Of a stretch of DNA of 64,000 bases, positions 1-63,513 are shown one piece after another. The stretch's first letter is position 1. Every line of letters begins with the position of its first letter. The notes beneath the pieces are model-generated. The model was not told the origin of the DNA. It worked only from the letters and a program-made list of their open reading frames with translations, and searched no databases. The DNA is taken from positions 44,775,001 to 44,839,000 of the forward strand of contig CP142451.1 of assembly GCA_038049695.1 (NCBI GenBank). Direction: 5' to 3'. This DNA is from Cinnamomum chago (taxonomy: Eukaryota; Streptophyta; Magnoliopsida; Laurales; Lauraceae). The translations under genes and the position numbers were made by a program.

Positions 1-99
1 TAAAACATGTTTTAAAGCTTGATTTAATGGCCCAAAAAGTTCCACCAAGAAAAACTTTGAATTATGCAAAAGTTGGAATTTTTGGTCCCAGCAGTGTGG

Positions 100-230
100 C
101 CGGTCGACCGGCCCAGGGGTCCCGGTCGACCGGGAACACTGCAGGAAGAATTTGCCCTGGTGCCCCAACGGTCATATTTCTGACCGTTGTGTGTTCCGGG
201 TCGACCGAGACCTGTTTCCAGGTCGACCGG
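100..230. repeat. GGTCGACC palindrome cluster, left LTR of L
   Basis: Four copies of a GC-rich palindrome with core GGTCGACC lie at 101-110, 123-132, 198-207 and 221-230, in two pairs 22-23 bp apart. Between the first two is a CCC/GGG-rich spacer (CCCAGGGGTC). The cluster sits 26-155 bp upstream of the TATA box, in otherwise AT-rich DNA, so it occupies the proximal U3 promoter. Function is unknown. Confidence 0.9.
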
Positions 231-255
231 GGACTAGCCGTTGGGCACTTTTTGC

Positions 256-263
256 TATAAATA
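256..263 (+). promoter_or_regulatory. TATA box, left LTR of L
   Basis: TATAAATA follows the palindrome cluster directly and is conserved in the right LTR (5535-5542). It is the best candidate for the start of element transcription, which would place the R region shortly after it. Confidence 0.65.
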
Positions 264-1923
264 TGAGTTCTTTCCTTTGCCAAAAGTTGGGAATTTTAAG
301 GCCCTCCTTGAGGGGTTTTGAGGCATATCAAAGGGAAATGAACTAAGGGATGAAGGGGATCATTAGGAAAGCTAAAGCTTGGATTAATGAAGTTAAATCA
401 CCAAGTAGGCTCTACTTTCCTTAATCATATGTTTTTCATGCTTTGTTTTATTTTTGGTAAATCATTTGTAGCATGATAAACTATGTTTGTGTTGTGTCCT
501 TAACATGTTTTATGTTTTGAATTGACTTATTGTTTTGGATACATCACCATTGATTCAATCCAAGTAGTACTTCATCTTTGGTAAATCTAAGTAGATCATG
601 TTAAGGGAAACATCTTTGAAATTAGATGTAACATGATCCATATACTTGGTTGAATCTTTGGTTGTTGTTTTCCATCATAAGAAAATCACTTTCAAAACTA
701 TCTTATGTTTTGGATTCAACTTCTTTACAAATCATATGTTTTCATGTTTTGTTTTATCTTTGATAAATCTTTAGTAGCATGTTAACCTATGATGTGTTGT
801 ATCCTTAGCATGTTTTATATTTTGAATGATCTATTGTTTTGGATGCATCACCATTGATTCAATCCAAGTAGTACTTTATTTGGGAAATTTAAGTAGATCA
901 TGTTAATGAAATTATATGTAACATGATTCATATACTTGGTTGAATCTTTGGGTGTCGTTTTTCATCATAAGAAAATCGCTTTCAAAATATATCTTATGTT
1001 GTGGATTCAACATCTTTACAAATCATATGTGAATTTGTTTTAAAGTTTCACAACTTGCTTTGCATTGATTGGTATATCCTATTCAAGTTGTATTTATAAT
1101 CACATATGATTTGTCCCCTATTTTCAATCAAATCTAATTTTATGTTTTATGAGCTACATGTTGATTTGATTGACATCCCTATGCTTCACATGTTTCGGTC
1201 TTTGAATTTTCACAACTTGTTTAGGATACAAATGTATAACTTTTACAAGCTAGTTTTAACATGTGATTAGCATTTCCTCAGTCATAAATGTTTTATGAGC
1301 TAAAACTTTCAAAAGCCTTAGGCATACATTTATGAGCTTTCATTTTCAAAATGATTGAGGACATCACACAAACACACATCATATACTTTCATCTTTTCAT
1401 TCATAGTGTGTGTGTGTATTAGATTATCATTTTCATGTCCGCCTATATTAGAGGCAAATGTAATGAGCTTAATTGAATCTCCATCAAGTGTATGTTAGAC
1501 ACTAATTTAGTGAGATAACCAACCTATGGTTGAAGAGGTTATTGCTTAGCCTATAAAAGCATAGTGGATAGGTTGATGTTGAGCCTTGAAAAACATCATT
1601 GTAAAGGTTATTGCTAAGCCTTGAAAAGCATATTGTAAAGGTTATTGCTTAGCCTATTGAAAAGCATAAATAGTGGAAATCCGGTGGGGTGTTGGATCAC
1701 AAGCCGGTAGTGGATGTAGGCATTGAGGCCGAACCACTATAAATCCTTGTGTGATGGTGCTCGCTTTGTGGTGATTGTTTTTATTAAGCTTCCGCATTTT
1801 GTTTGATAATCATCACTTGTGACTAGTTTGTTTTAAAGAAGTTAAATTTGATTAAAATTGGTCATAATTGGAGCTCACCCTATTCACCCCCCCTCTAGAG
1901 TTCGGATCCTCAGGACTTACAAT

Positions 1924-1935
1924 TGGTATCAGAGC
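1924..1935 (+). promoter_or_regulatory. Primer-binding site of L
   Basis: TGGTATCAGAGC lies two bases inside the 5' LTR end and is the standard plant initiator-Met tRNA primer-binding site. It proves the strand of the element and the LTR boundary. Confidence 0.95.
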
Positions 1936-4560
1936 GGGTTACTCCATTTTAGGGCTTAACAACCCGGAGTTGATCCTTGCTAGATTTGAACTCTAGTGTT
2001 GTGATTTATTGCATATCTTTTTAAAGATTTTCACTATGTTTGAAAATGGTTTTTTCCCCTAGCTTCATTGCACCACTCTAAGACTTTTTCAAGTTATATC
2101 TTCAAGAGTTGGTGAGTCCTCAAGTGAACTCTCAAGGACATCCTTTTCAAGACCTTAGGTGAATCTTCATTGGTACACATTTAGACTAACCTTAAGGCCT
2201 TGATCCCCCTAGACCAACCTATTCTTTTTAGTTATATCTATTTGTTGGTCATAGTACATTTGCATTTTGTTTCTTTATAGTCACATCTTTTAAAATGCAA
2301 TGTTTCTTTGTGATCATTTGATTTTGTCTTCATGAACTTTTAAGTTGTATCTCATGGTTTTCAAAATCCTTTGATTGCAATTCTTTCATGATGGATTTGC
2401 ATTTTGTTCATATAGTTATATCTCTTGTAGTGCTTATCTATTCATGATCAATTGATTGTGATTACAAATGCTTTCATAGCTAAATTTTTCATGATCAATT
2501 GATGTTGGGAAATCATTTGATGGATGTCATAGTTAGATTTTTTTTTTTTTTGTAAATCAAATGATTTGAAGCAATTTAAGTTTTCCATTGATTTTCAAGT
2601 TATATCTCTTGGTATGGAAAATTTGTGAGTGTCTATTGTTTTACAAATTGAGAATTTACAATAGTACACTTCTTGTTTTTCAAATTCACATGCTCTTAAT
2701 TCTATAAATGATTCCTTGTTGGAATTTCAAATATTGAAGTGATTTGAGAAACTTTGGAAAATGTTCTAAGCTTTATTGGTTGTATTTATAGAAGCATTTT
2801 CCTTGAATTTATTTCCTTGTGCTTAATTATGATTATATCTTTTGGAAGGAAATAGTTTTTACAAACAATTTGCATCTTTGCTCATTTAGTTACATTCTTT
2901 ATGCAAATTGATTTTGATGTCTTACATTGCTTGGTTGGATATGGTGTCATTGATTTGCATGTTTGTGCCTAACTTGGTATATTTTTTTTCATTAATGCAA
3001 ATTGATGATTGTTTATGTGCTTTATAGTAAAATCTTGTTTTTGAGCTTTTTAAGTACATATGTGATTTTATGTGCTAAGTTCATTTGGTTTAAACCTCAT
3101 ATCCATTTTCTATTGCATTGTAAGCTTAGTACATTTGTTAAGAGTGGAGATGTTGCATGATAGATTGATACCTTTAACTTCATACCCTCTTGTGCTTAAA
3201 TAGTTATATTCCTTTTTGATGATTGGTATGAGTTAGATCTTGAGTGTTGATTGATCATCTCTATGCAAATGTCAAATCGTTCTATGTATTGTCGTGTTAT
3301 TCATTATATTTGTAGAAACCATACTAGAACTAAAATCCATCCTCTATGCTTTCTAGTCATATTCTTTTTGGATGGTTATGATGTTGATTCATGTATTTTC
3401 TCTAAGTGATATCATTCTTATACATGTTTCAACTTCATAGTAGTGTTCTTGATCATATGAAACTCTTTGAAATCTATTCCTCATATTTCCATATGTTTGA
3501 TGGATATCTTAGATGTTGAATTCATATGATTTTGACACTTTGGAAATTGCATGAATTTCAAAGTTATATCCTTTTGCATTGCAATTTACCTTGTTCATCA
3601 CTATGCTCATTAGTCATATCATTATAAGTGATGAATATCCATTTATGTTGCTTGATGGATTTTGTGTTTGTCACATCCTTGCTATTAATCATGTTGTCAA
3701 ATTCAATTGGTTTCTTTTGGTATAATTTTCGATTGATTTGACTTCTTGTGTATGTGAGACCTTGTGTACATTGGATTGAACTTGATAGTAATATGTTTAC
3801 ATTCCATGTCACATTCCATTAGCATCATAATTTTCATGTTTGCCACCTCTCTTGCTCATATAGGTAAATCTCATGACCACCATGCTTATGTTTTCATTAT
3901 CTTGGTTGGTTATTAGTTGAGGTTGGCTTCATGCTTGAATTTCATTTCACTCATCTTGCACATGATAGTCATACTTTTTGATTGAATGAAATGATTTCAA
4001 AACTTACATAGCATATGATTTTCATAGTTAAATTATTTAATGCTATGTTTAGTAAACCCCATTGCATCATGGATAACTCTAATTTGGATTTTTCCTAATA
4101 GTTATATTTCTAAATCCATTTTAGAGTGATTGTGTTTAATAGACTTATCTTTAAATCTCAATTGGTATTCTTTGTTTTTCCAATTGGTATCCATGATTGC
4201 TTTTCTCTTTGACCTTGCTCTCTTTTGGTAATTTGATCAAATTGAGCCTTATAGTTAAATGAATCTAATCCTTTCCTTGAAGTTGACCCTCATTTGGTTT
4301 AACCATCTTCTTCTTGCATCTAATAGTTAAATCTTTGTCAAAAGTTTGACAAAAGGAGAGAATGGATTGAGGGGGAGTGTAAACCTTCATAGGAAGTATT
4401 AGTTTTGATCAAATTGACCCTTGGATTGCTTTTGAGCCCTTAGAGATAACTTCCATACATGATAGCCTGTTATGAATTTCATTTTCGATTTCATTTGTTA
4501 ACAGGTGCTACTAAAGGTATTTTCCTTATTTCATGTGTGTAGGTACCTTTGCAATTTAAT
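1936..4560 (+). repeat. Interior of L: array of stem-loops with a constant loop motif
   Basis: This non-coding stretch is not random AT-rich DNA. A motif close to TAGTTATATCTTTT recurs about every 50-110 bp, always on the + strand, from about 2085 to 4320. It is flanked each time by a different inverted repeat. Clear arm pairs are 2212-2218/2244-2250, 2260-2268/2292-2300, 2447-2456/2494-2503, 2510-2521/2556-2567, 2581-2588/2614-2621, 2811-2818/2846-2853, 2866-2875/2901-2910, 3544-3551/3580-3587, 3594-3601/3628-3635, 4006-4014/4040-4048 and 4076-4091/4112-4127 (two mismatches). Others have a bulge or mismatch (2320/2362, 3176/3225, 3383/3421, 3696/3732, 3939/3983). The loop motif is kept while the stems differ. 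No protein-coding signal is seen. Confidence 0.85.
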
Positions 4561-4998
4561 GTCAAAGGGGGAGAGAGAGCATTCAAGTACTCAAAGATCT
4601 CCTACTCTTCAAAGGGGGAGAGAGCATTCAAGTTCTCAAAAGGGTGAAGAGAATGTCCAAGTTTCTTAAGGAGAGTTGTGTATGATCTTCTACAATGGGA
4701 GAGAATGCATATCTAGCCAAAGGGAGAGAGAGGCATGGTCTAAGGGGGAGAGCAAATAGAAGAAAGAAAGCTTCGAGCTAAAGAAGATGCTTGGCCATAG
4801 AGAGGAAGATGAAAAGAAAGCTTGAAGAATGATCAAGCTCCAAGCATCAAGAAGATTGAAGAAAAGAGCCTAAGAGCCCAAGCTAAGAGGAGGAGCATCC
4901 AAGAAGATTTCAAGACTTGTCCAGCTGAGGGGGAGCTGAAGACTTGGTGTGTAAATTCAGTGGTGAGTGTGTTGCCATCAAATTGCAAAGGGGGAGAT
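4561..4998 (+). promoter_or_regulatory. Purine-rich 3' part of L with repeated PPT-like tracts; true PPT at 4987-4997
   Basis: AAAGGGGGAGA at 4987-4997 directly precedes the 3' LTR and is the polypurine tract that primes plus-strand DNA. Very similar tracts occur upstream at about 4563, 4611, 4741 and 4929, within an AG-rich, gene-free stretch. Only the last is next to an LTR. The others may be relics of repeated duplication or secondary priming sites. Confidence 0.75.
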
Positions 4999-7184
4999 TG
5001 TTAGGGATTTTTGTAGATTGCAATTTGATGGATGCATAATCATTCAAGCATCATTTGATTCACACACTTGCATTGTTTTAGATAAACTTGAAATCTTGTT
5101 TTATTCATGCATTGTTTTTAAGATTTGTAAAAGTTCCAATTTATGCATGATTTGCTTTTAAAACTTGGATGCATTTGTTTTTTAAAAGAGTTTTAGAAAT
5201 CAAGCTAGCCTTTGGTTTTAAAGTTTTGAATCATTTTAGGCTTTGTGTGTTTCATGTTTTTAAACCTCTTAAAATGATTTAAAACATGTTTTAAAGCTTG
5301 ATTTAATGGCCCAAAAAGTTCCACCAAGAAAAACTTTGAATCATGCAAAAGTTGGAATTTTTGGTCCCAGCAGTGTGGCCGGTCGACCGGCCCAGGGGTC
5401 CCGGTCGACCGGGAACACTGCAGGAAGAATTTGCCCTGGTGCCCCAACGGTCATATTTCTGACCGTTGTGTGTTCCGGGTCGACCGAGACCTGTTTCCAG
5501 GTCGACCGGGGACTAGCCGTTGGGCACTTTTTGCTATAAATATGAGTTTTTTCCTTTGCCAAAAGTTGGGAATTTTAAGGCCCTCCTTGAGGGGTTTTGA
5601 GGCATATCAAAGGGAAATGAACTAAGGGATGAATGGGATCATTAGGAAAGCTAAAGCTTGGATTAATGAAGTTAAATCACCAAGTAGGCTCTACTTTCCT
5701 TAATCATATGTTTTTCATGCTTTGTTTTATTTTTGGTAAATCATTTGTAGCATGATAAACTATGTTTGTGTTGTGTCCTTAACATGTTTTATGTTTTGAA
5801 TTGACTTATTGTTTTGGATACATCACCATTGATTCAATCCAAGTAGTACTTCATCTTTGGTAAATCTAAGTAGATCATGTTAAGGGAAACATCTTTGAAA
5901 TTAGATGTAACATGATCCATATACTTGGTTGAATCTTTGGTTGTTGTTTTCCATCATAAGAAAATCACTTTCAAAACTATCTTATGTTTTGGATTCAACT
6001 TCTTTACAAATCATATGTTTTCATGTTTTGTTTTATCTTTGATAAATCTTTAGTAGCATGTTAACCTATGATGTGTTGTATCCTTAGCATGTTTTATATT
6101 TTGAATGATCTATTGTTTTGGATGCATCACCATTGATTCAATCCATGTAGTACTTTATTTGGGAAATTTAAGTAGATCATGTTAATGAAATTATATGTAA
6201 CATGATTCATATACTTGGTTGAATCTTTGGGTGTCGTTTTTCAAAATATATCTTATGTTGTGGATTCAACATCTTTACAAATCATATGTGAATTTGTTTT
6301 AAAGTTTCACAACTTGCTTTACATTGATTGGTATATCCTATTCAAGTTGTATTTATAATCACATATGATTTGTCCCCTATTTTCAATCAAATCTAATTTT
6401 ATGTTTTATGAGCTACATGTTGATTTGATTGACATCCCTATGCTTCACATGTTTTGGTCTTTGAATTTTCACAACTTGTTTAGGATACAAATGTATATCT
6501 TTTATAAGCTAGTTTTAACATGTGATTAGCATTTCCTCAATCATAAATGTTTTATGAGCTAAAACTTTCAAAAGCCTTAGGCATACATTTATGAGCTTTC
6601 ATTTTCAAAATGATTGAGGACATCACACACACACACATCATATACTTTCATCTTTGCATTCATAGTGTGTGTGTGTGTGTATTAGATTATCATTTTCATG
6701 TCCGCCTATATTAGAGGCAAATGTAATGAGCTTAATTGAATCTCCATCAAGTGTATGTTAGACACTAATTTAGTGAGATAACCAACCTATGGTTGAAGAG
6801 GTTATTGCTTAGCCTATAAAAGCATAGTGGATAGGTTGATGTTGAGCCTTGAAAAACATCATTGTAAAGGTTATTGCTAAGCCTTGAAAAGCATATTGTA
6901 AAGGTTATTGCTTAGCCTATTGAAAAGCATAAATAGTGGAAATCCGGTGGGGTGTTGGATCACAAGCCGGTAGTGGATGTAGGCATTGAGGCCGAACCAC
7001 TATAAATCCTTGTGTGATGGTGCTTGCTTTGTGGTGATTGTTTTTATTAAGCTTCCGCATTTTATTTGATAATCATCACTTGTGACTAGTTTGTTTTAAA
7101 GAAGTTAAATTTGATTAAAATTGGTCATAATTGGAGCTCACCCTATTCACCCCCCCTCTAGGGTTCGGATCCTCAGGACTTACA
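4999..7184 (+). repeat. 3' LTR of element L (complete, 2186 bp)
   Basis: It starts TGTTAGGG immediately after the polypurine tract and ends ACTTACA. Compared with the left copy it lacks about 18 bp near 6240 and has a longer (GT)n run near 6665. Palindromes GGTCGACC are at 5380-5389, 5402-5411, 5477-5486 and 5500-5509, with the TATA box at 5535-5542. The LTR is unusually long for an element with no coding capacity. Confidence 0.93.
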
Positions 7185-7625
7185 ATCACTGCCATAAATC
7201 AACATGTAATATGTAGTCATTCTCAAGTATTTGAGAGTACACTTTACAACAGTCCAATGTTAAGGTCTTGGGTTAGATTGATATCTGCTGACTAGGCCCA
7301 CTGCATGACAGATATCCGGTCTAGTACGTAGCATAGCATACATGAGGCTACCAACAACCGAAGCGTATGGTATCAACCTCATCTGCTCCTTTTCCTCAGG
7401 TGTCTTAGGACACTGGTCTTTGGAAAGGTGCACTCCATGGCTGAAGGGTGTAATGCCCTTCTTGGAGTCTTGCATAGCGAACCGTACCAGTACCTTATCT
7501 ATGTATTCAACTTGGGATAAGCCAATCATCCTATTTTGCCGGTCTCGATGGAGTTTGATCCCTAGGATGTAGCTAGCTTATCCCAAGTCCTTTATATCAA
7601 AAGTCTTGGCTAACCAAACTTTCAC
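7185..7625 (-). pseudogene. Ty1/copia pol fragment (end of RT, start of RNase H)
   Basis: On the - strand the translation shows copia reverse-transcriptase C-terminal motifs (FDIKDLG, then YILGIKLHRDR) followed by the RT-RNase H connection (YASVVGSLMYAM, RPDICHAVGLVSRYQSNP). An in-frame stop follows the DLG motif. The fragment is cut on its left by element L and on its right is joined to gypsy element A. The rest of the copia element is not in the window. The first five bases may be L's target duplication. Confidence 0.85.
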
Positions 7626-28278: not shown

Positions 28279-29874
28279 GTAGTTCCTCCAGAATGAACAA
28301 GAGCAAAGAGCCTGCTACTGATGCACCTTGTCGGTTTACCAGGTCTTCTAATGTGGCTGTACAGCAGGTCTGGGAGAAGGTCCAGTTTGTGGAGAAGAAC
28401 TTGGAAGAATGTGACTCCCCTCAACCGCCACGAGATGAGACAGCGATTGATCGCTCTCAAGGATGAGGAGTTCTATAGGATTGTGGTAAGCAACCGTCCT
28501 TGGGTCATGGACGATCAGAGCGTTGTGCCCAAGCCTACCTTCTTCTTTGGCGATGCAGTCCCTGACGACTTGACATACCAAAAAAGGTGTTTTCAGTTCT
28601 CTTACACAGCTGATGGTGAGGAGAGAACTATCTCTACCCGGTAGACTTTTGATCGGACTATGTCGATCATGAGTCTTTCTCCCACGTGTCCCAAGAGGGA
28701 GGATCCTCTAAGCTGGGTGAAGAGGACCAATGTGATAAAGACCGGGGTTTTTGTTGGCGGTCCTTCCGGATATGCGGAGAAATTGCCTGTCCATATGGAC
28801 ATGCTGATGCCCTCCAGTGGCTACCAAGGTTCTGACCATCCGGCGGTCAGTTTGAGACCGGTTGGCCTTGGCATTTTTCGGGGCGACAGCAGCAGTTGGG
28901 TAAAGCCTTTTCGACTTCGTGGCCGTTTCAGTGCTGATTCGAGCTGGGAATCATGGACTGATCACACCCTGCAGGTTGGTGGAGCCATTTTAAAGGAGGC
29001 CGGGATCTTCGACGCGGTTCGCGCTTTTCGAAAGACCGTGGTTTTCTCCGATGAGGCCTTCATGGCCATGCTAGAGTCGTTCCTTCCACAAACCAACACC
29101 TTCATTGTGACGAACGATGAGATTGGTTTTACTCTGAAGGAATTAAGCGTCATCACCGGGCTGCCTATCCTTGGCAAACTCTATGAGGAGTTTATGCCTA
29201 TCGACAACGTTCTTGAGGAGCAGTCTGAGGGGTTCAGGTTCCTGTTCTTTCAGGTCGTCGCCTTCTATGATTTTTTTAAGGAGAATGAGGGCTTGAAAGT
29301 CCGGTGTAGCAGTTACAAAAATTGCAGCTCCAACTTCTTTGACGGCGGAGAGTCTTCTGAAAGTATGGCCCAAGATGCTAGGGCCAAGAACCCATGTTCG
29401 AAGAAGATCTCCGTTATGCGAGATGACTTGAAGAAGTTCTTCGAGAATACAGACACCAGTTGTCCTGACATTGCACTGCAAAGAGATCTCGCTGTTTACC
29501 TCACTTATTGGTTGGGTGAGGCTGTTTTCGCTGGAGGGGATGGAACACACATCAGGCCGCATTGTATTTTTTCGGCTTATCAGATGGTGTTCGGAGAGCG
29601 GTTGGCTTTGGTGCCAGCTCTTTACTCCTACTTGTGTACCGAACTGCAGGCTGCTGCTTTCTTGGTTCGGCTTGGGCTCCCCATGAACAGGGTATTTTCA
29701 GCCCATATTTTCTATTCGTGGTATGTTTACCACTATCCCAGCTTCCATCATTTAGGAGTTGCACAAGATGATGACCCTTTCATGATTCGGATGGCTAGAG
29801 GGATGGCCGTTTCTGAATCTCTTTTGTTTGCCCGTTTGAGGATCCGACGGTTCAGGGACGTCGAGATCAGGTAA
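28279..29874 (+). pseudogene. Antisense gene exon 2: PMD-like core
   Basis: The longest intact stretch runs from 28660 to 29874 (404 codons). It has a Trp-rich start (EDPLSWVKRTNV, SSSWVKPFRLRG), the ITGLPILGK motif and a C-terminal YVYHYPSFHHLGVAQDDDPFM. The upstream 28279-28659 part is the same protein: one reading frame covers the first 45 codons, another continues from about 28420 to a TAG at 28642, after which the same frame goes on. A possible splice donor CAG/GTAATC sits at 29870. Confidence 0.75.
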
Positions 29875-55837: not shown

Positions 55838-55849
55838 TGGTATCAGAGC
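55838..55849 (+). promoter_or_regulatory. Primer-binding site of element E
   Basis: TGGTATCAGAGC, perfect initiator-Met tRNA site, one base after the LTR. Confidence 0.95.
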
Positions 55850-58044: not shown

Positions 58045-60534
58045 ATGGACACAGCTTCAGATATCATGTTGTCCTTGTCTGAGATGTTCGCAGACAGAAG
58101 CAGGCCAGCTAGGCAAGCTGCTTTAAGGACAATCATGAATTCTAGGATGGCTGAGGGAACACCTGTCAGAGAGCACATGCTCAAAATGATGGATTGTTTC
58201 AATGAAGCTGAGATCCTAGGGGCTGAGATTGATGCAGGGAGTCAGACTGATATGATTCTCGAAACTCTGTCGGGGTCTTTCATCCAGTTCAAGCTCAACT
58301 TCAACATGAGCAAGATGGACATGACTCTCTCTGAGTTAATGAAAGAACTCCAGGCGGCAGAGGCCATCATGAAGCCTAAAGGCCAACTTCACTTTTCCCA
58401 GTTTTCCTCTAAACTCAACCCGAAAGGGAAAAAGTTCAAGAAGAAGCAGGGTAAGGGAAAAGGACAGAAAAAGGGCAATGCTGGGAAGAAGGACAAAGGC
58501 ACAGGTGAAAAGCCCAAAGGGAAATGCTTTAAGTGCGGCCTCAAAGGTCACTGGAAGAAAGATTGTCCCAAGCTCCTAGGCTCAGATAAGAAAGGTATAT
58601 CTCTTTCCTACTACATTGAAACCTGTCATGTGGTTGATTCTACTGATTCCTGGATAGTAGACTCTGGAGCCACTAATCATATCTGCAATTCATTGCAGGG
58701 GTTTCAGATAATGAAAAAGCTTGAGAAAGGGGAGTTTGACCTTAGAGTTGGAAATGGAGCAAAGATATGGGCTGTTGCAGTGGGAGCTGTTACCTTACAT
58801 TTTCCGCATGATAGGATATTAGTTTTAAACAATGTTATCTATGTTCCAGACATAAGGAAGAATTTAATTTCAGTTTCCAGACTCATTGAATTTAATTATT
58901 CAGTTTCTTTCCATTCTGGTGTTGATATCAGTAGAGATGGAAATATTATATGTTCCGGTAGAATGCATGATAACTTATTTTATATATATCCTATTGCTCC
59001 CTCACTGCATAATGTACAACTAGAAAGCTCATCTTCCCTTAAGAGGAAGGTATCTTCGACCAATGACACTTATCTTTGGCACTTACGTTTGGGTCATATT
59101 AACCTAAAACGGATTCAGAGGTTGGTAGAGGATGGGCTTCTGAGCTCATTAGATCTCGAACCTTTTCCTCAGTGTGAATCTTGTCTCATGGGAAAGATGA
59201 CAAAAGGGTCATTCTCTGGAAAGGGACTGAGGTCAAAGGAGTTGTTAGAATTGGTTCACACTGATGTGTGTGGTCCTATGAACAAACTAGCTAGAGGAGG
59301 TTATGAGTATTTTATCACCTTCACTGATGATTACTCTAGGTATGGATATGTGTACCTAATGCGACGCAAGTCTGAAGCGTTTGATAAGTTCAAACAATTC
59401 AAGGCTGAGGCTGAGCTACAACTAGGGAAACATATCAAAGCTCTTCGATCTGATCGAGGTGGCGAATACCTCCTGGGTGAGTTCAAGGAGTACCTCACAC
59501 AACATGGGATTGTGTCTCAGTTGTCTGCACCAGGTGCACCCCAGCAAAATGGTGTAGCAGAGAGAAGAAACCGGACCCTTCTTGATATGGTAAGGTCCAT
59601 GATGAGTCATGCAACCCTACCCATATCTTTTTGGGGATATGCCCTAGAAGCAGCAGCATACATTTTGAATCTGGTACCTTCTAAATCAGTACCTAGGACA
59701 CCTCAAGAAATGTGGACAGGTCGAAAACCCAGTTTAAAACATATCCACATTTGGGGTTGTCCAGCTTATGTACTGAATGATAAAGCTACCAAGCTAGAAC
59801 CCAGATCGGAAATGTGCTACTTCATTGGGTATCCTAAGGGAACGAGAGGAGGCATCTTTTATCATCCAAAGGAGCAAAAGGTGCTTATCAGCACTCATGC
59901 TAGATACTTGGAGGATGATTGCATGATGCACCAAGAGCTTGGTTGTAAAGAAACACTTGAGGAGATTCTTTCAGAAACTCCTGCAACATCTGTGCCAGAT
60001 CCTGAGATTGTAGAAAATCAAGACATTCCTTTTAACACTCCGGAGCCTCGTCGTAGTGGGAGAATTTCTAGACCACCAGATAGATACCTGGGAGTGTCTT
60101 TCATGACAGACTCCGAGGATCTGGTTGAGGATCCTACTAGTTACGATGAAGCAGTAACGGACATAGATGCTGACATGTGGCAGCAAGCAATGAAATCTGA
60201 ATTGGATTCTCTGTATTCCAATCAAGTCTGGGAACTTGTGGATGCACCTGAAGGGATCAAACCCATAGGGTGCAAGTGGATCTACAAGAGAAAGAGAGGA
60301 GTGGATGGGAAGGTTGAAACCTTCAAAGCAAGACTGGTGGCGAAAGGATATACTCAGAAAGAGGGTATCGATTATGAGGAAACTTTTTCGCCAGTAGCCA
60401 TGCTCAAGTCCATAAGGATTCTCTTAGCCATCGCATGTCATTATGACTACGAGATATGGCAAATGGATGTCAAGACAGCTTTTCTAAATGGAAGTCTTGA
60501 CGAATGCATCTATATGATGCAACCAGAGGGATTC
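58045..60534 (+). pseudogene. Element E gag-pol: gag, protease, integrase, start of RT
   Basis: Open for 831 codons. Gag runs to about residue 150, zinc knuckle CFKCGLKGHWKKDC at 161-174, protease WIVDSGATNHI (Asp near 206), GAG-pre-integrase LWHLRLGHINLKRIQRLVED with CESCLMGK, integrase Asp near 406 (TDVCGP), Asp near 469 (RSDRGGEY) and Glu 36 residues later (NGVAERRN). RT begins with VWELVDAPEGIKPIGCKWIYK and ends DVKTAFLNGSLDECIYM, before the YVDD motif, because gypsy F starts at 60535. The last codon or two before the stop come from F. Integrase active site intact. Confidence 0.93.
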
Positions 60535-63513
60535 TGTTAGACCCCGACCCAGACCAGTTTGATTAGTGTGCGATTAGTATGTGTTTAGTCTTAAGTGGGT
60601 TTAGTTGTGGTTGGGTTAGAAGTGATTAGCTTTAGTCCTGGACATAGCTTTGGGAATTTTGAGAACGTTTAGTATTGGTTAGACACACTCAAGAAGGCTT
60701 GAGTGCACGTGTAAGCTTGGGAAGATCGTATCGTTTTCCGTGTGAGTGTGGTTTTGATTTCATTTGAATGATCTTTTTATGTGTTACAACTTTCGTTTTA
60801 AGACCATTCATGTTTGAAGCCCAAAAACCCATGTTTTGGCCCAAGGAGGGTAAAATTGTCTTTCTTGCACAAATCTGGACACAATTTTCGAGATCTCAAA
60901 ACCATGTCAAAAATATACTTTTTGGAAACTAGATATTTCGACGATCATTTTATCCTTCTTCGTCGAAGTCATCCGAGGCCCACAAGACCATGTTTTAGTC
61001 ACTTCAAGTTCAAGCCAAATGGGGCCCATGAGTCATCACTTAATCCCCTTTCCCCTCCCTTTTCATTCATTTCCCAATCTCTGCAACTTTTGAGTCTAGG
61101 GCAAGAGAGAAAACCTCTTTTCTCCTTCATCTTCCTCACTTGGTTTGATCTAGCTAGAGAGCTCCAAAGGAAATTCTAAGACTACCATTTTCTTCATCTC
61201 CTTGCAAGCTCTCCATTGATACAAGTTTCTTGAGTTTTCAAGTTGGGCAAGAGCTCCTTTTTCTTCCCTCTCTCTTGTTTGACCTTCTCTAGGTAAGAGC
61301 TTCAACCCATATTTTTTTCATGGAGTCATTTTAGTTCCTTAAGATCATGTTTTTCATGTTTTCAAACCCTATTTGGAAAATGGGTTCCTCGTTTCCATTT
61401 TGAGTGAGTTTTGTGTGTCTTCTTGTTTTTGCTTGTAGTGTGAGATTAGCTTGTGTGAAGAGCTTGGAGGAGAGTGTTTAGCATTTGGGCAAGGCAAGTA
61501 ATCTCTATAGGATCATTGTGCATGTTTATTTTAAGCTACATTGTTGTTTGAGAAGTTTTGTACATGAATATGTCTACAAGTTTCATACTCATGATTTCCT
61601 TTGTGTTGGATGTTTAAAGTTTGGAAAAATATATGTTTTGTCCCTTGGAGAGTATGTAGACTCAGGGAATATAAGTGGAATGAGAATGAATGGAAGGGAA
61701 GAAGAGAAATGTGAAAAATCTGTGCTGAAACGCATTCCCGTGCACTGGCGGTCAGCACAGCGGTCAGCTCGCGGCTAGCCGCCTGTGCCCACTGCGGCTA
61801 ACCGCAGGCTGACCGAACCCAGCGGTTCCTTTTCCAGAAGCTAGCATTTTCACCTGGGTTCAGCGGTCAGCTCCGCGGTCAGCCCACGGCTAACCGCCAG
61901 TCCCACTTGCGGTTAACCGCAGGCCAACCGAGGATTTCGGTTCCTTTTCCAGAAGCTGACATTTCGACCATGTTTCACGGTCAGCTCCACGGTTAGCTAG
62001 CGGCTAGCCGCCTCATCCCATCACGGCTAACCGCTGGCCAACCGCGCATGCGGTTCCTTTTCCCGAGAGCTAAACACAGAATTTCATTCCAGCGGTCAGC
62101 CTGGCGGTCACCTTGCGGCTAGCCGCCAGACCCCAGTTCGGCTAGCCGACACCTGACCGCGAGGTGACCGAATTTGACAAGTTTCCTATTTTGAAGAGTT
62201 TTGCAAGAAGGAAAAACTAGAACATGTTAAGTGACCTCTAGCCTGATTTTGTGCACTCGAAACCCAAAATTTCTTTGAACTTCTGGGGCACCAATCCTTT
62301 CCTAAAATTCTACTATTTGGGTCTCAATTGCACAAAGATAAATCAAAGGTCCTTGCTTGTGCTTGATAGGCCTTGTGTTCGTGCTTTGGTTTTTGATATG
62401 ATGAATATCATCGTGAACTTGTTTTGAAGTGTTAGTACAAGCTTGTTTTGAAGTTTTGTTAAGAAAAAGGGGATCACTTCCTAAGCGTGTTTTGCATAAA
62501 TATTATGCCTCGTGCTAGTCGTGCTCGTCGTGTTGTGATAAGTGATTTCCCCCTTTTTATCTCGACGTGTTTGATCGTGCTTCGCGTGTTTTGTGCATTC
62601 ATGAATTAAGTAAACACCACTGAGCTTAGACTGCCCTTTCGGTTTGATCCACTGTCTGGGGGTCTTTAAACATGTGGACTGTCTGCAGACTGGTCGTGTA
62701 TTTATTACACATCGTGCGTGTCCGGTTCCGCTGCCGGAAGTCCCGTCTTTGTGGGAAATCGTGTCGTGCTTATATTATGTATATCGTGCTTGTCGTGCGT
62801 GCTTGCTCTTTTCATTATATAAATGATAGAGAAAGGATGGGCTCTTTGTGGATTGTAACTTTTCATGATATATTTAGTACTCATGCTAGTTTGTTTTGAT
62901 ACCTCAGCTATTGTGACAGTTCAAATCAAGTATTCGATTTCAAGTGTTTTTCCAAAGTATTATTATCATGTTCATGCCTATATTGATTACCTGCCAAACC
63001 GTCTGTTTGACCCTTGCTTGTTGGTGCCCAGGTGCAGGAGACGTTGCCTTTGAGGAGGAGCGTCAGGAGGAGGCTTGTGAGCCAACTCCCGTGAGAGAGT
63101 GGCAGCCCGACGATGTCATTTAGATGTCGGACTGGTCCTCGAGTTTCGTCACCATTTTGTCTTAGGGTTCTTTTGTTTATGTTGGAGATGTGTATTGGCC
63201 TCTCTTGGGAATTGTAACAAAACTTAATTTACTTTCTTGTTAGACTTGTAACTTGAACAATGTTGGGAATGCCATGTTAACTTATTCCTTTGATACTTTG
63301 TCTTGTATATTATTGTGATAGCACCTAAATATTTTACTGATGCTTATCTAGTTGTGTTTTGCTACACGCTTCCGCAATCGTGTACGTGTGAGTCAGATCC
63401 CGTGTCTTTGGGAATCCTCACCGCGGGAACCTGTGGGAAAACAAAATGATCAAATAAGAATAATCACAATCAACACCGTCGCGGGGCCTGGGATCCGTTC
63501 CGGGGTCGCGACA
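60535..63513 (+). repeat. 5' LTR of element F (2979 bp)
   Basis: Ends GGTCGCGACA, followed by GGAC and the primer site. It is related to the LTRs of A and B. A four-unit, 115-bp repeat carrying GCGGCTAGCCGC palindromes lies at 61748-62170. ORFs such as 60814-61179 are chance. Confidence 0.93.
61748..62170. repeat. Four-unit 115-bp palindrome array in LTR of F
   Basis: Units start at 61748, 61863, 61977 and 62092 (spacings 115, 114, 115). Each has two GCGGTCAGC half-sites, a GCGGCTAGCCGCC palindrome, a short C-rich spacer, a second palindrome (GCGGCTAACCGC type) and GGCTGACCG on the other side. Between units is the constant CGGTTCCTTTTCCAGAAGCT. Confidence 0.9.

Follow-up and report, generated by a model that had tools for sequence, protein, structure and literature searches.

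How the proteins of one element recognise LTR retrotransposons that are themselves non-coding is poorly understood. In the 64,000-nucleotide stretch of Cinnamomum chago DNA analysed here (the window), a sequence-only reading had noticed an element, L, whose internal region appeared to hold a series of hairpins with a constant loop and different stems. We asked whether this array exceeds chance, whether it is preserved as RNA structure and what might read it.

Element L belongs to the non-autonomous, LARD-like LTR retrotransposons

Element L is truncated by the window start, and its internal region of ~3 kb lies between two LTRs:

1..1922, + strand: 5' LTR of element L, truncated by the window start, 3' boundary approximate
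1924..1935, + strand: primer-binding site (PBS) TGGTATCAGAGC, exact match
4987..4997, + strand: polypurine tract (PPT) sequence AAAGGGGGAGA, adjoining the 3' LTR on its 5' side
4998..7187, + strand: 3' LTR of element L, pair partner of the 5' LTR

The 5' LTR is 98.0% identical to positions 5280–7186 (1927 columns), and insertion of L was therefore probably fairly recent. With up to one mismatch allowed, the PBS TGGTATCAGAGC is matched six times in the window (0.22 expected); we take it to be of the initiator tRNA type. An internal region that lacks coding capacity, framed by two LTRs, a PBS and a PPT, makes up a LARD-type layout: the longest open reading frame (ORF) overlapping 1924–4997 is 82 aa long and lies on the opposite strand, and no Gag frame, as a TR-GAG element would have, is present among the ORFs that overlap this region. 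LARDs such as Sukkula are described in the part of PMC7215508 that we cite as having an internal domain without protein products and a well-conserved RNA structure. L resembles them in the former respect, but the same part of that description mentions no array of hairpins with a repeated loop motif, and we liken L to Sukkula by layout, not by homology.

A search of the genome (1.06 Gb, 14 contigs) with 2070–4130 yielded 6408 candidates at first look, and each of the 40 that were scored was a match, with 91–100% identity. L has thousands of candidate copies in the genome. Viral and prokaryote collections searched for element L gave nothing useful, with one 17-mer match. Tandem arrays of the L type were seen at C2:14580083-14639537 (period 5218 bp), C5:42003574-42016225 and C1:77052547-77070538.

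The hairpin array exceeds chance expectation

The array and its hairpins, including two that do not enter the pair counts, are as follows:

2071..4371, + strand: hairpin array of L; 18 non-overlapping scored hairpins make up 44% of the span
2071..2114, + strand: hairpin, motif at 2091, loop 25 nt
2209..2254, + strand: hairpin, motif at 2229, loop 25 nt; in the Gag-bearing relative L049, C-G is replaced by a T-G wobble
2256..2303, + strand: hairpin, motif at 2278, loop 21 nt; homologues with changed outer arms in L072 and L077
2308..2380, + strand: hairpin, motif at 2342, loop 35 nt; compensatory G-C to A-T and two wobble-to-Watson-Crick changes in L049
2386..2447, + strand: weaker hairpin, motif at 2413, score 20; excluded for overlap
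2447..2503, + strand: hairpin, motif at 2477, loop 27 nt, 15 pairs
2510..2567, + strand: hairpin with a 12-bp perfect stem; its loop T run has a 6-base gap in 21 of 23 other copies
2577..2625, + strand: hairpin, motif at 2597, loop 25 nt; C-G to T-G wobble in L049
2805..2859, + strand: hairpin, motif at 2830, score 21; excluded from pair counts (base 2859 common to the next hairpin)
2859..2917, + strand: hairpin, motif at 2887, loop 25 nt
2946..3009, + strand: hairpin, motif at 2974, loop 34 nt
3173..3237, + strand: hairpin, motif at 3201, loop 38 nt
3375..3441, + strand: hairpin, motif at 3404, 19 pairs, loop 23 nt
3544..3587, + strand: hairpin, motif at 3561; arms alike and loops different in L052, L072 and L077
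3592..3637, + strand: hairpin, motif at 3611, loop 24 nt; same arms in L052, L072 and L077
3763..3813, + strand: weaker hairpin, motif at 3786, loop 15 nt
3935..4000, + strand: hairpin, motif at 3966, loop 29 nt
4006..4048, + strand: hairpin, motif at 4025, loop 25 nt; the outermost pair, A-T, reads T-A in 15 of 23 copies, A-T in four, T-T in three and a gap in one
4072..4131, + strand: hairpin, motif at 4099, 17 pairs, loop 20 nt
4298..4371, + strand: hairpin, motif at 4324, loop 37 nt; lowest mean predicted pairing probability (0.15)

The sequence-only reading had placed about 15 hairpins at 2070..4130; the array is real, but it has more than 15 units and ends near 4371. All five stems that had been named were recovered (2510–2521/2556–2567, 2866–2875/2901–2910, 2260–2268/2292–2300, 4006–4014/4040–4048 and 4076–4091/4112–4127), the second of them nested in a longer imperfect stem, 2859–2875/2901–2917. 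Over 2050–4400, 29 motif sites lie on the + strand and two on the − strand. In 200 dinucleotide shuffles the + strand count averaged 3.3 and never exceeded 8, although the position matrix was trained on this same stretch, which biases the count of 29 in its favour. The stem score was at least 17 at 23 of the 29 sites, and exclusion of five stems overlapping a better one left 18 stems with 243 pairs.

A fairer test than the motif count is arm exchange, in which the stems of L scored 20.24 with their own arms and 15.39 (sd 0.61) with swapped ones, none of 20,000 permutations being as high. The comparison with shuffled controls that the sequence-only reading had called for came out in the same direction: inverted repeats that match exactly over 7 bp or more and enclose 20–40-nt loops number 25, versus 5.06 in 100 shuffles (sd 2.14, maximum 10), and those of 8 bp or more 13 versus 1.5. 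Spacers of inverted repeats in L peak at 25–39 nt; no such peak was seen in the remaining 56.8 kb of the window. Stems of the roughly twenty hairpins are AU-rich and of 8–19 pairs each; the 18 retained have a median loop length of 25 nt, with the motif beginning a median of 9.5 nt past the 5' arm.

Could the array still be due to chance, or be an ordinary diverged tandem repeat? The units have a motif in common, as old repeats do, and since Tandem Repeats Finder reported nothing for 2070–4130, any repeat would be old. As a full account this reading is refuted by arm exchange (0 of 20,000 in L and in the Gag-bearing family described below), by the shuffles and by the between-family selection tests, and we find it scarcely credible.

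Local folding gave a mean pairing probability of 0.69 for stem pairs and 0.66 on the opposite strand, and folding-energy z-scores were alike on both strands, with the + strand not favoured. The predicted unpairedness of the loop core was only slightly above that of other sites (0.43 versus 0.36). Rfam models run on window positions 1–7300 gave ten matches at E ≤ 5, none of which reached its gathering score. Among the literature matches listed, judged by titles and the beginnings of abstracts, no such hairpin array appears.

Relatives of L carry a Gag-like frame upstream of the array

A search of the genome with a motif-pair pattern led to L046–L050, two of which, L049 and L050, contain the first part of the array in a 75% similar version. 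On the upstream side of this version are an LTR 78–80% similar to that of L, a PBS and a reading frame that includes a CCHC knuckle and terminates directly ahead of the hairpins. Since relatives with 75–88% similar arrays and 78–88% similar LTR parts carry this Gag-like frame, the group of L departs from a strict LARD definition, in which no group member has gag or pol.

The order read in L051/L049 is LTR, PBS, Gag-like frame (with one internal stop), array and 3' LTR. This one element, with a single Gag-like frame and without pol, is like TR-GAG elements, which are so defined in the available text of PMC8704663, where a Gag-only TR-GAG is stated to transpose; by comparison it has a further module, the array that follows its Gag-like frame, and L itself differs in having no Gag frame. 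The match of the frame to Pfam is weak (zf-CCHC, E = 0.014, below its cut-off), and by inspection of its sequence without a tool it may be read as containing a coiled coil. No other frame of at least 80 aa lies on the element strand of L049, and the RT/RNase H matches in L051 are on the opposite strand and outside the element.

A genome search with a piece of the L049 array gave 3759 candidates, of which 40 were scored and 40 matched. Gag-like frames of this kind are numerous: a protein search that took a 57%-identical homologue as query gave 6608 candidates and 142 scored matches, many with open frames of 460–490 aa. Downstream of six further Gag-like frames, the array was clear in two (L072 and L077), partial in two and absent in two (L073 and L074). 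Arm exchange was as high as observed in 14 of 10,000 permutations for L072 and in none of 10,000 for L077. In the second family (19 copies, L052 as reference), own arms scored 19.45 and swapped arms 15.09 (0 of 20,000).

Three side observations concern this family. It too forms a tandem array, at C12:58356973-58426550 with a period of about 5731 bp; the L-type and Gag-bearing tandem arrays look as if neighbours shared LTRs, and Cassandra arrays are similar in the cited part of PMC7215508. L053 is 95% identical to L049 over the query and 79% to other copies over a longer stretch, and its array is possibly recombinant. Proteins filed under Streptomyces and Cysteiniphilum (P0003, P0005, P0006 and P0010) match the Gag-like frame at 66–81% and are probably plant contamination.

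Base pairing is preserved between families and, more weakly, among L copies

We aligned 23 other copies of L with the window copy, excluding L008 (the tandem twin of L007) and leaving out L046–L050. These copies are best matches only, from one genome and one tool, and are mutually related, so that the counts do not represent independent events. Relative to the window copy, arms diverged by 3.5% on average, the stretches between hairpins by 5.8%, the 11-base motif by 6.2% and the remaining loop by 9.0%. The formula of a constant loop with different stems holds only between units; when copies of a single unit are compared, the arms are conserved most and the non-motif loop least; 'constant loop' is too strong, much of the loop outside the core evolving fast.

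Against expectations derived from the control substitution spectrum, pair-breaking arm changes among the 23 copies were depleted (singletons, 44 versus 81.3; shared by at least three copies, 20 versus 47.4), whereas pair-keeping changes were not (25 versus 23.9 and 10 versus 12.1). Post-insertion drift does not predict the depletion in singletons. Inverted repeats of L with 60–200-nt loops gave, over all variants, 0.68 of expectation for keeping, 0.65 for A-C and 0.77 for other changes.

Tree-based counts, made with random ties and forward changes only, gave ratios of 0.51 for keeping, 0.26 for A-C and 0.29 for other changes in exact near stems (7-bp), with p = 0.005 for kept versus broken and p = 0.016 for GU versus AC. 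The corresponding ratios in off-arm distant repeats were 0.57, 0.45 and 0.83. Near stems differed from distant repeats in kept versus broken changes (Fisher p = 0.002), but not in GU versus AC (p = 0.17). For the 18-stem set in L the tree-based test was not significant (kept versus broken, p = 0.11; GU versus AC, p = 0.088). Three double changes within L preserve pairing, two of them singletons, and alignments of 12 hairpins across copies show mostly point changes and small gaps. Very small GU-over-AC p-values from earlier tree counts were rejected, distant inverted repeats being equally skewed and alphabetical tie-breaking being suspected. As evidence for the + strand, the GU-specific counts are suggestive rather than conclusive.

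Comparison with the Gag-bearing family gave a stronger signal. In eight stems chosen by hand for L versus L049, with the stem at 2413 omitted, 69 of 81 pairs were the same, seven were kept through single and two through double changes, and three were broken, where 24.3 broken pairs were expected and the minimum in 5000 simulations was nine. The two double compensatory changes (G-C to A-T and T-A to A-T) are accompanied by several wobble changes. Global alignment with L049 over 2079–2640 (75 pairs) gave 8 kept versus 5.5 expected and 6 broken versus 22.4. Over 3262–4400 (112 pairs) the counts were 4 kept versus 4.2 and 6 broken versus 14.0; the distant-repeat control for this region showed 7 kept versus 3.2, above expectation, and 16 broken versus 12.4.

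Extending the comparison to 19 second-family copies, we found 149 of 160 pairs of the 18 stems to be the same, 7 kept versus 7.4 expected and 4 broken versus 23.3; none of 3000 simulations had so few broken pairs, and A-C differences numbered 0 versus 5.5. Off-arm inverted repeats with 60–400-nt loops, at 11 broken versus 14.7 and 0 kept versus 4.1, had no comparable bias. Most stems lie at homologous positions despite a control divergence of about 10–20%. The weak stem at 2413 is not conserved, five of its 16 pairs being broken both in L049 and in the second family (ten same and one kept in the latter), and the principal counts are unaffected by it; of the other overlap-excluded stems, that at 3354 is unchanged in 12 of 12 pairs and three fall in regions unalignable between families. 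Since L and the second family align poorly over 2640–3260, and a second-family motif hairpin at 605 of L052 has its own arms, there seems to be turnover of units.

Within the second family (19 copies, reference L052; L053 was excluded as only ~79% like the other 19), shared arm changes numbered 17 versus 53.6 expected, and those in off-arm distant repeats 53 versus 78.2. GU-making and AC-making changes were equally rare (2 versus 14.3 and 1 versus 9.9). GU-making changes being depleted like the others, arm sequence, besides pairing, therefore seems to be held.

The selection on RNA structure that the sequence-only reading had suggested is supported in that breaking differences from the Gag-bearing family are strongly depleted and compatible ones are not; the same trend is weaker among L copies. 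The mutational process that it had offered instead, rewriting both arms together, is disfavoured as the main cause, given that the arms, at homologous positions, are retained from family to family, as are a few bases of the loop. Hairpins can be created and mended by template switching, as the cited portion of PMC8794818 describes, and such switching in quasi-palindromes could write and correct both arms without any function. The depletion of breaking changes even in singletons, the likeness of fold z-scores on both strands and the GU-making changes of the second family, no commoner than AC-making ones, all fit this account. However, it gives no reason for four loop positions to be conserved in variants that have propagated, and it is also opposed by stems that are homologous across families with wobble-compatible changes and no A-C differences (1 versus 4.7 in the global alignment), and by the absence of the spacer peak from the rest of the window. 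We consider it quite improbable.

Four loop positions are constrained

Many loops contain the core A-G-N-N-A-N-A within UAGUUAUAUCU, and four loop positions of the latter, A2, G3, A6 and A8, are clearly constrained. At 19 strong sites in L, shared variants at these positions numbered 5 versus 15.0 expected (p = 0.003), and singletons 18 versus 16.7; other loop positions had 89 shared variants versus 62.5. Because the core positions were chosen after inspection of the matrix and the L variant data, their repeat in the second family carries more weight: shared variants there were 0 versus 9.6 (p = 7e-5) and singletons 6 versus 8.2, with 64 versus 36.6 shared variants in the rest of the loop. Shared non-core loop changes occur at 1.4–1.75 times the control rate in both families. 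G3 is the least certain of the four bases, since a tree-based count put position 3 at a ratio of 1.16.

This pattern bears on two further explanations. The hairpins could be precursors of small RNAs or silencing decoys, as self-complementary RNA from a high-copy element might suggest; however, the loop core is constrained as well as the arms, and no Rfam family reached its gathering score. Stems of 8–19 imperfect pairs are, moreover, short compared with those of plant microRNA precursors, and we regard a small-RNA role as very improbable. Alternatively, the array could shape the RNA for reverse transcription, through pausing, compaction or genome spacing, without any sequence-specific protein. 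Its long tandem local structure would suit such a role, as would its position in the Gag-bearing relative described above, which is that expected for pol; but this does not predict four conserved loop bases beside a fast-changing rest of the loop, and we think it improbable.

A putative docking array for a partner protein

Our data support the conclusion that the hairpins exist beyond chance and that pairing and the four core loop bases are preserved beyond chance; they indicate that a 'non-coding' element can be under RNA-structure selection. A hairpin on which a protein docks would be expected to keep its pairing and a few of its loop bases and to vary freely elsewhere, as these do. The repetition of hairpins suggests many protein copies, as in capsid assembly, and the occurrence of the array in elements with and without Gag points to Gag, or a protein serving both, as a possible reader.

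We tentatively propose, with a little less than even confidence, that the array consists of dispersed, redundant protein-docking (packaging or assembly) hairpins common to Gag-coding and Gag-less elements, with a putative partner protein. The RNA of element L would carry a string of about twenty hairpins, many of whose loops would present the core A-G-N-N-A-N-A; the core bases would be read by a protein, for which the Gag of a partner element is the likeliest candidate; and the array may provide redundant packaging or assembly sites that let Gag-less copies ride along. A docking protein other than Gag fits equally well. The more specific picture, in which a single Gag would use some twenty loop-tagged hairpins, common to Gag-only donors and Gag-less parasites, to assemble on non-coding element RNAs in their thousands, is conceivable from the sequences, yet we hold it to be doubtful.

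The strongest rival is that a host RNA-binding protein reads the same selected loops for nuclear export, stability or localisation of the element RNA, for which constitutive-transport-element-like systems are the comparison. The evidence for structure and selection suits any loop-reading protein, the array downstream of the frame in the Gag-bearing relative resembles a 3' untranslated region, and nothing specific speaks against this explanation, which we rate as unlikely overall.

Docking of a partner protein for packaging has parallels. Dispersed packaging stem-loops with a common loop motif are described for ssRNA viruses in the cited part of PMC6281560, and multiple stem-loops with a common loop motif are what the L array contains. 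It is like the packaging signals of MS2, STNV, HBV and enterovirus-E in combining many stem-loops with a common short recognition motif, but differs from them in its large loops (~25 nt) and in belonging to an LTR retrotransposon, and coat/Gag binding is putative here. If true, our proposal would extend the idea of dispersed packaging signals from RNA viruses to cellular retrotransposons.

Among retrotransposons, the Gag-less BARE2 is packaged into BARE1 particles according to the available passages of PMC3735527, which also mention conserved dimerization and packaging signals. This pair resembles the arrangement proposed here, with a Gag-less member in the particles of a Gag-coding one, packaging of L being only presumed; unlike in L, no dispersed hairpin array figures in those passages. 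Ty1 and Ty3 are likewise LTR retrotransposons with cis elements (putative in L): their cis encapsidation elements, with scattered additional sites suspected, are treated in the cited part of PMC4974528. The Ty1 packaging sequences are placed at the 5' terminus in the excerpted text of PMC5454406, whereas the array of L fills the internal region. The array is a concrete, testable candidate, with a repeated loop core, differing stems and natural families that differ in single units.

Further observations on the LTRs and the window

Inverted repeats with 25–34-nt spacers also occur inside the 3' LTR. Selection tests on the LTR inverted repeats were mixed, the 307-bp LTR duplicate giving only P = 0.017 and 0.041, and selection on these repeats, being without clear evidence, is not claimed. 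The LTR contains a near-tandem duplicate of ~300 bp (423–739 and 730–1030, 86% identical) with a long nested stem and strong z-scores, and 20 bases of the 5' LTR (960–979) are absent from the 3' LTR (after 6238). Elsewhere in the window, a Copia-type Gag-Pol frame of 831 aa occupies 58045–60540 on the + strand, and the PBS at 55838 may belong to the same element. A 404-aa frame at 28660–29874 contains a plant mobile domain (PF10536).
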